Of a stretch of DNA of 64,000 bases, positions 6,159 to 17,511 are shown in pieces. Under the pieces are notes generated by a model, which saw only the letters and a list, made by a program, of their open reading frames with translations, was not told where the DNA came from and searched no databases. Source of the DNA: Alphaproteobacteria bacterium. GTDB lineage: Bacteria; Pseudomonadota; Alphaproteobacteria; Sphingomonadales; Sphingomonadaceae. The stretch covers positions 354,135 through 418,134 of the forward strand of contig JAUHWC010000004.1 of NCBI GenBank assembly GCA_030424845.1, given 5' to 3'. Numbering within the stretch: the stretch's first letter is position 1; each line of letters opens with the position of its first letter. The position numbers and the translations under genes were made by a program.

Positions 6159-8162
6159 CTATTTGCTCTTCAGGTCAGGCGCGGTCGCCGCATCCTTGAG
6201 CAGGGCAACAGCTTCATCCAGCTTGAGGAACTGCTGCTGCTTCTCGCCCAGCGTGCGCAGCGCGACCGTGCCTTCCTCCGCCTCGCGCTTGCCCAGCACG
6301 AGGATGTAGGGGACCTTGGCGTGGCTGTGTTCGCGCACCTTGTAGTTGATGGATTCGTTGCGGAAGTCCGTCTCCACCCGGATGCCGAGCGCGGCCAGCT
6401 GGTCCGCCACCTTCTGCCCATAGGCATCGGCGTCGGAAACGATGGTGGCGACCACGGCCTGCACCGGGGCAAGCCATGCCGGCACGCGGCCTGCGAAATG
6501 TTCGATAAGGATACCGATGAAACGCTCATAGGAACCGAAGATCGCGCGGTGCAGCATGACCGGGCGATGCTTCTCGCCATCCTCGCCGATATAGGTCGCA
6601 TCGAGGCGTTCGGGCAGCACGCGGTCGGACTGGATCGTGCCCACCTGCCAGGTGCGGCCGATGGCATCGGTCAGGTGCCATTCCAGCTTGGGCGCATAGA
6701 ACGCCCCTTCGCCGGGCAGTTCCTCCCAGCCGAACTCCTCGGTCGCCATGCCGGCATCGCGCACGGCCTGGCGCAGCTCTTCCTCGGCCTTGTCCCAGTC
6801 CGCATCGGAACCGAAGCGCTGTTCGGGGCGCAGGGCCAGCTTGATCTCGTAGGTGAAGCCGAAGTCCTTGTAGATCCGGTCCGCCAGCTCGCAGAAGGCG
6901 CGCACTTCGGACACGATCTGGTCCTCGCGGCAGAAGATGTGCGCATCGTCCTGCGTGAACTGGCGCACGCGCATCAGGCCGTGCAGTGCGCCATGCGGTT
7001 CGTTGCGGTGGCAGCATCCGTTCTCGTACAGGCGGATGGGCAGCTCGCGATAGGAGGTGATGCCCTGCTTGAAGACCTGCACATGGGCCGGGCAGTTCAT
7101 CGGCTTCAGCGCCATCCAGTCCGCATCGTCGGACACGATCGGGCCGTCATCCTCGGTGTTCGGCACCTCGTCGGGGATGACGAACATGTTTTCGCGATAC
7201 TTGCCCCAGTGGCCGGATTTCTCCCACTGGCGGGCATCCATCACCTGCGGCGTCTTGATTTCCTGGTAGCCGGCAGCGTCGATCGCGCGGCGCATGTAGG
7301 CCTCCAGCTCGCGCCAGATCTTGTAGCCATTGGGATGCCAGAAGACAGAGCCATGCGCCTCTTCCTGCAGGTGGAACAGGTCCATCTCGCGGCCCAGCTT
7401 GCGGTGGTCGCGCTTGGCGGCCTCTTCCAGCCGCGTGAGGTGTTCGTTGAGCTGCTTCTTGTTGAGCCAGCCGGTACCGTAGATGCGCGTCAGCTGCGCA
7501 TTCTTCTGGTCACCGCGCCAGTAAGCCCCGGCAACACGCATCAGCTTGAAGGCCTGCGGGTCGAGCTTGCCGGTGGAAGGCAGATGCGGACCGCGGCACA
7601 TGTCCAGCCAGTCATCGCCTGACCAGTAGACCGTCAGTTCCTCGCCTTCCGGCAGTTCCTTCGCCCATTCGGCCTTGAAGCTCTCGCCATCGGCTTCCCA
7701 CTTGGCGATCAGGTCCGCCCGGCTCCACGCCTCACGGCGCAGCGGCTTGTCGGCCTTGATGATCTCGCGCATCTTTTCCTCGATGGCGGGCAGGTCATCC
7801 ATGCCGAAAGGCTCGCGACTGGCAGGGGCCATCACGTCATAATAGAAGCCATCGTCGGTCGCCGGGCCGAAGGTGATCTGCGTGCCCGGCCACAAGGCCT
7901 GCACCGCTTCCGCCAGCACATGGGCATAGTCGTGCCGCGCCAGTTCGAGCGCGTCTTCCTCGTCGCGAGAGGTGACCAGCGCCAGTTCGGCATCGCCATC
8001 GAAGGGGCGGGTGAGGTCGCGCAATTCCCCGTCCACGCGCGCGGCAATCGCGGCCTTGGCAAGGCCGGGGCCGATCGCTGCCGCGACATCGGCAGGCGTC
8101 GAGCCCGCGGGCATCTCGCGCACCGAACCATCGGGAAGGCTGATCTTCAACAACTCGCTCAT
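6159..8162 (-). CDS. thrS: threonyl-tRNA synthetase
   Basis: A 667-residue class II aminoacyl-tRNA synthetase that charges tRNA-Thr and edits mischarged Ser-tRNA. It has an N-terminal TGS domain (residues 1-65), the editing domain with [11 protein letters not shown] carrying the HxxxH zinc-type motif, the class II catalytic core with [11 protein letters not shown] and [11 protein letters not shown], and a C-terminal anticodon-binding domain. Length is normal. The 5' leader (8163-8372) encodes a threonine-rich peptide and can form competing hairpins, so expression is probably regulated by threonine supply (see separate entries). Confidence 0.97.
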
Positions 8163-8221
8163 CGAAACTCGCTCTCAAATTCACTGCGACGCGCCATGGC
8201 ATAGAGCGGCGCGCACGCAAA

Positions 8222-8322
8222 GGGGCGGCGTCAGAGTATGGGCAGTTTCGGGTAGCAGACGCCGCGCCACCCGAAGCCGGGTGGCGGCAGTCGCGTATCA
8301 GGCCACGACCAGCCGCCCCCGG
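8222..8322 (-). promoter_or_regulatory. thrS leader: competing RNA hairpins (putative attenuator)
   Basis: On the transcribed strand the segment complementary to 8277-8288 has two mutually exclusive partners. One is 8312-8322 inside the leader peptide frame: 11 base pairs with one bulge (GCCGCC/GGCGGC plus CCCGG/CCGGG). The other is 8265-8273, giving a 9-bp stem (core CCACCCG/CGGGTGG) with a 4-base loop. A further 8-bp stem (GCGGCGTC/GACGCCGC, 8258-8265 with 8225-8232) follows, then CCCCTTTGCG. This is the 2:3 versus 3:4 layout of peptide-leader attenuators, but the classical long U-run is missing, so the mode of termination is uncertain. Confidence 0.55.
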
Positions 8323-8372
8323 CAAGGCGGGGTGGTAGTGGTTGTGGTGGTGATGGTGCGCTGCTGCATCAT
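8298..8372 (-). CDS. threonine-rich leader peptide of thrS
   Basis: A 24-codon frame starting with two ATGs (MMQQ). It then reads R-T-I followed by seven consecutive threonine codons (ACC, ACC, ACA, ACC, ACT, ACC, ACC), then PPCRGRLVVA and a stop 135 bases before thrS. Eight Thr in ten residues directly ahead of threonyl-tRNA synthetase is the signature of a regulatory leader peptide like ThrL of the E. coli thr operon. A ribosome stalled early in the Thr run would leave the downstream pairing segment at 8312-8322 exposed. There is no good Shine-Dalgarno; a promoter placed only about 4 bases upstream suggests near-leaderless translation. Confidence 0.7.
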   Translation of the reverse strand: MMQQRTITTTTTTTPPCRGRLVVA

Positions 8373-8382
8373 GACGGGACAC

Positions 8383-8411
8383 CATATAGGGCGCGAATCC
8401 TGCAAAGTCAC
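8383..8411 (-). promoter_or_regulatory. predicted sigma-70-type promoter of the thrS leader
   Basis: Read leftwards, GTGACT (8411-8406), a 17-base spacer and TATATG (8388-8383) match the -35 and -10 consensus at four of six positions each. The expected transcription start is near 8376, about 4 bases before the leader-peptide ATG. Prediction only. Confidence 0.35.
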
Positions 8412-8482: not shown

Positions 8483-9220
8483 ATGAGTGGAACCGACACA
8501 CAATTCGCCGAGATGGCAGGCCGCCGCATCGCCTTTCGCCATGCCCCCGGCACGGGCCCTGCCATCATCTTCCTGCCCGGCTACATGTCGGACATGGCGG
8601 GCGGCAAGGCCACCGCGATCTTCGACTGGTGCATGGCCACGGGGCGCGAATGCCTGTTGATGGACTATTCCGGCTGCGGCGAGAGTCCCGGCGACTTTGC
8701 TGAAGGCACGCTGTCGCGCTGGCGCGAGGAAGTGGTGGGGCTGGTGCAGCAGGAAATCCGCAGCGAACGCGTGGTCATCACCGGGTCTTCCATGGGAGGC
8801 TGGCTGATGCTGCTGGTGGCGCAAGCACTCGAAAAACCGGTGGCCGGGCTGGTGGGCATTGCCGCGGCGCCCGATTTCACCAGTTGGGGTTATTCCGCCG
8901 AGCAGAAGGCCGCTCTCGCCAACGGTGAGACGATCTACGAGGATAGCGATTACGGCTATGACCCCATGCCCACCCATCCCGGCTTCTGGGCAGATGGCGA
9001 AGCACAATTGCAGCTAGGTGGCGAGATCGGGCTTTCCTGCCCGGTTCGCCTGCTGCACGGCCAGGAGGATGCCGATGTGCCGCCTGAGACATCGCTGCGC
9101 CTTGCCGCGGCGCTGCGTTCAGAGGACGTGCAGGTGACGCTGGTCAAGGGCGGGGACCACCGCCTGTCGAGTGAAAGCGATATTGCCTTGCTGCTGCGGA
9201 CGGTGGCATCGATCCACTGA
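8483..9220 (+). CDS. alpha/beta-hydrolase
   Basis: A 245-residue single-domain alpha/beta hydrolase. The nucleophile elbow GSSMGG is near residue 105, the oxyanion region is FLPGYMSDMAGG near residue 30, the catalytic Asp is in LLHGQEDADVP and the His in GGDHRLSS near residue 225. It resembles the ABHD10/thioesterase-like branch, but no substrate can be assigned. The start at 8483 (MSGTDTQF) is favoured because upstream codons overlap the thrS promoter. It heads a plus-strand group with the TPR protein and the luciferase-like oxidoreductase. Confidence 0.88.
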   Translation: MSGTDTQFAEMAGRRIAFRHAPGTGPAIIFLPGYMSDMAGGKATAIFDWCMATGRECLLMDYSGCGESPGDFAEGTLSRWREEVVGLVQQEIRSERVVITGSSMGGWLMLLVAQALEKPVAGLVGIAAAPDFTSWGYSAEQKAALANGETIYEDSDYGYDPMPTHPGFWADGEAQLQLGGEIGLSCPVRLLHGQEDADVPPETSLRLAAALRSEDVQVTLVKGGDHRLSSESDIALLLRTVASIH

Positions 9221-17427: not shown

Positions 17428-17511
17428 TGCGGGCGGCGGGACTCGAACCCGCACGATCCGTGGATCAGGGGATTTTAAGTCCCCGGCGTCTACCAATTCC
17501 GCCACGCCCGC
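17428..17511 (-). tRNA. tRNA-Leu (anticodon UAA)
   Basis: Read on the minus strand it folds as a complete cloverleaf: acceptor GCGGGCG (17511-17505) pairs with CGCCCGC (17435-17429), anticodon stem GGGGA/TCCCC encloses CTTAAAA, and GGTTCGAGTCC gives the T loop. The D-loop and long variable arm are of leucine type. CCA is not encoded. Confidence 0.97.

Follow-up and report, generated by a model that had tools for sequence, protein, structure and literature searches.

A Thr-rich leader ORF with competing RNA helices before thrS, a predicted ribosome-mediated attenuator in Sphingomonadales

A Thr-rich ORF precedes thrS

The window (the whole stretch of DNA analysed, 64,000 nt) carries the gene for threonyl-tRNA synthetase on its minus strand, preceded by a short ORF and, beyond that, by a divergent gene:

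6159..8162, minus strand: thrS, threonyl-tRNA synthetase, 667 aa (profile match TIGR00418)
8298..8372, minus strand: leader ORF ahead of thrS, MMQQRTITTTTTTTPPCRGRLVVA plus stop, 24 codons, with Thr-Ile-Thr7
8483..9220, plus strand: alpha/beta hydrolase gene, the divergent neighbour beyond the leader

In a profile search, the thrS product scored 637.4 bits against TIGR00418 (cut-off 383.65). An earlier note on this DNA had reported a frame of 24 codons in which Thr-Ile is followed by seven Thr codons, directly ahead of thrS; this frame is present at 8372-8298 on the minus strand. It has 7 Thr in 8 codons. When the upstream region was subjected to 20,000 dinucleotide shuffles, the maximum among ATG-started ORFs was 5 Thr in 8 codons, reached in 8 shuffles, and none had at least 6. 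Like the leader ORFs of attenuators, this frame is short and enriched in Thr codons, which match the substrate of the enzyme whose gene it would control.

Conservation and distribution of the leader

Relatives were defined as the best 80 of 498 ThrS matches in the genome collection. At least 5 Thr in 8 codons were found in 50 of these 80 loci, and at least 6 in 46; L052 was manually excluded from the leader set because its run looked like a chance occurrence. In the control for the 80 relatives, 5 Thr in 8 codons occurred in 2 of 4,000 shuffled regions. The Thr codons of the leaders were ACC (199), ACT (84), ACG (53), and ACA (23). The use of all four third bases points to selection on the reading of the peptide.

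A covariance model, described below, detected leader plus RNA in the loci of 56 relatives out of 80; its training set had included 31 of these 56. The model gave 58 matches in the window and the 80 loci: the window itself, the 56 loci (L047 and L048, both weak matches, included), and one antisense extra in L079. The element was absent from the other 24 relatives, indicating that it is dispensable.

Within the family, 108 of 298 genomes, representing 40 of 96 genera, had a match at E up to 0.1, a limit at which matches near the threshold may be due to chance. The best 30 family matches retrieved, which include the window's own and some of which may share species with the 80 relatives, all lay directly before thrS and had 4-8 Thr in 8 leader codons. 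Across the class, 5 of 289 genomes had a match at E up to 0.01. Three of these belong to the same family, and the remaining two (L205 and L206) are weak matches outside it for which thrS was not on the retrieved stretch. The same was found for three weak extra matches in the window's own genome (L083-L085). In four of the relatives (L027, L032, L041, and L060), leader and helices precede another gene, which is followed by thrS, so that the leader lies ~580-690 nt upstream of thrS. The intervening protein of L027 weakly resembles RNase AS (25.6 bits; cut-off 200).

Six segments and four covarying, probably competing helices

Six segments downstream of the Thr run, in the order in which they are transcribed, can be assigned to paired regions:

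8312..8323, minus strand: segment 1, in the leader just past the Thr run, partner of segment 2 (pair counts, covariation)
8277..8288, minus strand: segment 2, partner of segment 1 or segment 3 (pair counts, covariation)
8265..8276, minus strand: segment 3 and the loop bases on its 5' side (CUUCGGGUGGCG), partner of segment 2 or 4 (covariation)
8258..8263, minus strand: segment 5 (GGCGUC), partner of segment 6 (covariation)
8246..8252, minus strand: segment 4 (CCCGAAA), partner of segment 3 and its loop (covariation)
8227..8232, minus strand: segment 6 (GACGCC), partner of segment 5 in the predicted OFF helix (covariation, U-tract count)

In most aligned relatives, the Thr run is followed by three codons and then by CGG GGG CGG or a close variant, which is segment 1. 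The earlier note had proposed that 8277-8288 chooses between two partners, and both pairings were recovered by computation: the duplex of 8288-8277 with 8323-8312 has -26.9 kcal/mol and one bulge, and the alternative duplex tried, with 8272-8265, has -20.5 kcal/mol. Segments 2 and 3 have two partners each, and segment 4 sits in the loop of 5:6. The predicted relay sets 1:2 plus 3:4 against 2:3 plus 5:6. The two stems of the attenuation drawn in the note are part of it; however, the four-helix relay is longer than drawn, since helices 3:4 and 5:6 had been missed, as had a CTT-N16-TATGCCAT box nearer thrS.

Segments 4 and 6 were poorly placed in a MAFFT alignment of 55 sequences (A1). A covariance model was therefore built from 32 A1 sequences, hand-picked as typical, and the full set was realigned. 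The model contained helices 2:3 and 5:6, to which the realigned set is fitted, and did not contain 1:2 and 3:4. In this alignment, which was fitted to both helices, 2:3 plus 5:6 had a covariation score of 0.353, compared with a mean of 0.197 in shuffles, and 95.1% of cells were paired. The score of 1:2 plus 3:4, helices not in the model, was 0.172 against 0.102 in shuffles, with 87.3% of cells paired. Neither score was reached in any of 500 shuffles, and every slide of the partners lowered it. A count of two-sided pair changes was less extreme, being reached by 14 of 500 shuffles for 2:3 plus 5:6 and by 5 of 500 for 1:2 plus 3:4.

Whole helix sides were also permuted among species. Pairing of 1:2 was 0.90, a small excess over the permutation mean of 0.87 and maximum of 0.891. 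The observed values and permutation maxima were 0.93 and 0.914 for 2:3, 0.83 and 0.778 for 3:4, and 0.98 and 0.897 for 5:6. By these excesses, 5:6 and 3:4 are the best supported helices and 1:2 is the least well supported. Example pairs among the 55 distinct rows were C-G in 37 and U-A in 18, with no mismatch, for 5:6; G-C in 34 and A-U in 16 for 2:3; G-C in 43 and A-U in 8 for 1:2; and U-A in 22, G-C in 12, and C-G in 3 for 3:4, to which the alignment was not fitted. The antisense match (L079:1275-1397) and the partial L047 were left out of the pair, folding, spacing, and U-tract counts, and L048 was additionally left out of the accessibility count; no rows were dropped from the covariation scores. 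The Thr run is kept in relatives and both alternative stems show two-sided changes, which is the outcome that the earlier note had named as support when it suggested an alignment of the regions upstream of thrS.

The ACC-rich codons amount to GGT repeats on the plus strand, and a GGT-type simple repeat with chance hairpins would have this appearance. However, Thr is retained despite variable third bases, 0 of 20,000 shuffles gave 6 Thr in 8 codons, and four helices covary. The shuffle control and the covariation led us to reject a simple-repeat or chance origin, to which we assign a negligible probability.

In the Sphingomonas-type relatives L047 and L048, the Thr run is shorter and the RNA is different; by eye, the segments still pair in the same order. 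A CTTTTC stretch follows segment 4 in both.

Folding with a ribosome placed on the leader

With a ribosome at the leader stop, the folding model favored 2:3 in 43 of 56 sequences and 5:6 in 46 of 56. When the ribosome was instead modeled as stalled on the Thr run, leaving segment 1 unoccupied, a probability above 0.5 was obtained for 1:2 in 30 of the 56, for 3:4 in 20, and for 5:6 in 13. In the window, stalling lowered the modeled probability of 5:6 from 1.00 to 0.12; that of 3:4 was only 0.01. The ribosome-free RNA kept 5:6 in 38 of 56 sequences, in the window together with 1:2. Within the model, the direction is the expected one on average, not in every species. Between the final Thr codon of the run and the stop lie 11 codons in 39 of 52 leaders, 8 or 9 in 10, and 12 in 3. 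This spacing would fit a fixed ribosome edge just before segment 1. Mutually exclusive helices from which a stalled ribosome could select, another property of attenuators, are indicated at this locus by covariation and by folding, the latter on average and not in every species.

Because 3:4 and 5:6 both covary, they might instead coexist as a single H-type pseudoknot that serves as an ON or OFF signal, in which case they would not be mutually exclusive. The connecting loops of 5-7, 3-7, and 10-20 nt appear geometrically permissive, and the folding program used does not treat pseudoknots. However, a 5:6 helix present in both states could not carry the signal, unless 2:3 alone does so. We regard a pseudoknot as improbable.

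Proposed mechanism

The explanation that we favor, with a probability of roughly two in three, is that the Thr-rich ORF and the folding RNA before thrS constitute a ribosome-mediated transcription attenuator. Stalling of the ribosome on the Thr codons would keep segment 1 uncovered, allowing it to pair with segment 2. Formation of 1:2 would release segment 3, which would capture segment 4; 3:4 would then block the predicted inhibitory helix 5:6, and RNA polymerase would continue into thrS. With ample charged tRNA-Thr, translation would proceed beyond the Thr run, the ribosome would cover segment 1, 2:3 and 5:6 would form, and the transcript would end before thrS. Expression of thrS would thus presumably rise when threonyl-tRNA is short, with the helices folding in the order given. 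Because the helices are defined, the relay, and the way in which polymerase might be stopped without a U-tract, are testable by point mutation.

Output of the leader

In the full sequences, neither segment 6 nor helix 2:3 is followed by 8 nt with at least 5 T (0 of 56 cases), and an E. coli-type consensus scanner reported neither promoter nor terminator between 7900 and 8600. A GC-rich stem followed by a U-tract, the form of an intrinsic terminator, is not present. For this reason we describe the leader as working like an attenuator and do not file it as a canonical member of the class. The earlier note had read the two pairings of 8277-8288 as an antiterminator/terminator choice. The competition stands, in that 1:2 and 2:3 covary, but 2:3 as the terminator does not, as no U-tract follows either 2:3 or 5:6; the failure of this terminator feature leaves the note's interpretation only partly supported. 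Termination at this locus, which we infer as the output, would not be of the usual intrinsic kind, but either Rho-assisted or caused by a U-tract-free hairpin.

Zymomonas mobilis is a sphingomonad relative. According to PMC7566282, intrinsic terminators account for about one third of its transcript ends, and Rho-dependent ends are suggested to be important as well. By analogy with these transcript ends, Rho-assisted termination is the output type that we prefer for the thrS leader.

Accessibility of the thrS ribosome site was calculated with the helices imposed. The mean over 51 sequences was 0.48 in the stalled (ON) state and 0.52 in the passed (OFF) state. On stalling, a rise of more than 0.15 was found in 0 of 51 sequences, and a fall of more than 0.15 in 3. 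Because accessibility was little changed, the leader probably acts on thrS at the level of transcription. Masking of the thrS ribosome site was rejected as a general output, since the ON state was not more open over the 51 sequences.

The same sensor might, however, act through translation or mRNA decay, with 5:6 hindering a ribosome or a nuclease. The lack of a U-tract in the 56 sequences and in the scanner output is consistent with such an output, as are the four loci with the intervening exoribonuclease-like gene: helix 5:6 there ends 12-15 nt before the ATG of that gene, formed from other letters with the same pairing, and the predicted start accessibility was lower in the OFF state in 4 of 4. 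In the window, too, the thrS site was slightly more open when ON (0.41 vs 0.36, a rise of 0.06). Against this, 5:6 ends 56-98 nt upstream of the thrS ATG, and the 51-sequence mean shows no opening of the thrS site in the ON state. We consider translation or decay an unlikely output, and transcription attenuation remains the preferred reading.

Predicted promoters of the leader and of thrS

Two promoters were predicted at the locus:

8406..8411, minus strand: -35 box GTGACT of predicted P1, the leader promoter, 16 nt from the -10 box (comparison among 53 leaders)
8384..8389, minus strand: -10 box CTATAT of predicted P1 (comparison, shuffle control)
8196..8222, minus strand: CTT-N16-TATGCCAT box, predicted thrS-proximal promoter P2 (fixed 16-nt spacing, 53 sequences)

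P1 rests on comparison among leaders, because the E. coli-type consensus scan did not report it. The -35/-10 pairs were chosen by a simple scan for the best score. The ATG followed the best -10 box by 7-9 nt in 43 of 53 leaders, compared with 95 of 1,060 shuffled upstream stretches (9%); in the window the distance is 11 nt. Transcription usually starts 6-8 nt past the -10 box. The two distances together suggest a transcript that begins at the ATG or a few bases before it, and we predict an mRNA with little or no 5' untranslated leader ahead of the Thr-rich ORF. The near-leaderless start that the earlier note had proposed agrees with this: the start suggested by the -35/-10 pair of the window is near 8377, ~5 nt before the first ATG.

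The second box, CTT-N16-TGTGCCAT or a close variant, was found with gap-free spacing 53-93 nt before thrS in 53 sequences: the window, 49 other loci with a leader, and three loci without one (L014, L017, and L076). The box of L008 has one change and is outside this count; L047, L048, L027, L032, L041, and L060 have no box. A similar box lies before lgt in three genomes of the genus (L227, L208, and L228; one protein checked, TIGR00544), these lgt boxes having been found among many scattered pattern matches with one mismatch. We predict that the thrS-proximal box is a promoter for a basal, leader-independent level of thrS. In appearance it resembles a promoter class with an unusual -10 region.

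Conservation of the box near thrS would also be expected if ThrRS bound its own leader by tRNA mimicry as in E. coli, with the TGT of the TGTGCCAT box as a mimic of the Thr anticodon. However, the middle base of the would-be anticodon varies (A in 2 of 53 sequences, the window among them, and C in 3 of 53), the box is kept in the three loci without a leader, a similar one precedes lgt, and RNAalifold gave no consensus structure for it. Operator mimicry by this box, the one candidate considered, is very unlikely in view of the variable middle base and the lack of a predicted structure.

Combining the promoters with the attenuator gives a more detailed version of the preferred reading, which we offer tentatively. 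Stalling on a leaderless poly-Thr ORF would be relayed through four helices to a U-tract-free hairpin, and Rho, or the hairpin by itself, would stop the polymerase before a second, constitutive thrS promoter.

Comparison with known systems

In E. coli, ThrRS binds its own mRNA through a mimic of the tRNA anticodon arm (translational autoregulation), and in Firmicutes thrS is controlled by a T-box. Stalling on a Thr-rich leader, predicted here across a bacterial family and with a differently built example in a second alphaproteobacterial family (f65, below), would be a third solution for thrS. E. coli thrL has a Thr-codon run and alternative stems, both of which it has in common with the thrS leader. 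It differs in its target, the biosynthetic operon thrABC, which it controls with Thr and Ile codons, and in its U-tract terminator. The T-box of Bacillus subtilis thrS detects uncharged tRNA itself, without a leader peptide; the likeness to the present leader would lie in the threonine-starvation response. PMC3997798 cites work on the induction of B. subtilis thrS upon threonine starvation, in which the leader takes part, and mentions a leader terminator.

The earlier note had held that control of thrS by peptide attenuation would be notable. This has to be qualified, since in Streptomyces lividans a leaderless thrL, without a uridine-rich stretch, lies before thrS (PMC8079986). That leader differs from ours in belonging to an Actinobacterium and in its peptide, MKRVRPFLETTPGFVPAR, which has two Thr codons; the account in PMC8079986 describes one hairpin, without alternative helices. 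The trpL RNA of Sinorhizobium meliloti, also an Alphaproteobacterium, starts at its own ATG and resembles the thrS leader in its short ORF with control codons and in its mutually exclusive structures (PMC7298713). It differs in controlling trpE(G) and in having a transcription terminator, and the description in PMC7298713 contains no comparable helix relay. Attenuators of Streptomyces trpS and leuS, and gamma-proteobacterial pheST, are mentioned in PMC1262725. No description of a thrS leader in Sphingomonadales was found in our literature searches; an earlier prediction may be contained in a survey of attenuation published in 2010, which covered amino-acid and aminoacyl-tRNA genes and is cited in PMC4833913.

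At gathering scores, Rfam revealed no leader or T-box family in the whole window. Between 8100 and 8500, at E up to 10, the search gave just a plus-strand match to a group II intron, below threshold (E 0.32). A known Rfam element was rejected as the identity of the thrS leader, as no leader family matched. The sole Rfam match in the window at gathering scores is a tRNA gene at 17428-17511, minus strand.

Other Thr-rich thrS leaders in the class

Sixty thrS-upstream stretches were retrieved from genomes of the class. Among the 89 thrS upstream regions of the class sample, two (L134 and L151) had at least 5 Thr in 8 codons. When L115-L143 were recut at the corrected start, L115, from the window's family, was found to have the leader, and L137 was a weak candidate with 5 Thr in 8 codons. 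The leader of L151 (L264; genome G347), MRTHPVLRSTATTTTTATGGRWRMRA, is Thr-rich and lies before thrS. All other thrS starts examined in the family of G347 stayed below 5 Thr in 8 codons, and this leader may be an isolated case.

In f65, the family of L134, a Thr-rich leader of 18-25 codons was present in 8 of 10 thrS upstream regions (L134, L231, L232, L233, L235, L236, L237, and L238); of the remaining two regions, one had no leader and one was ended by a contig edge. In 7 of the 8 leaders, all from one genus, inspection by eye revealed a hairpin followed by TTTTTT, written as CCCTCCCGG-loop-CCGGAGGGTTTTTT or a close variant. The 5' arm of this hairpin can pair with GGAGGG (or GGGGGG) past the Thr run, inside the leader. 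The f65 loci thus resemble the window in having a Thr-rich leader, a -10 box similar to GATATT shortly ahead of the ATG in those sequences that were inspected, and a segment past the Thr run that can pair with the 5' arm of a hairpin; unlike in the window, the hairpin is then followed by TTTTTT in 7 of 8. By analogy, the canonical terminator form in f65 supports transcription as the probable output in the window's family.
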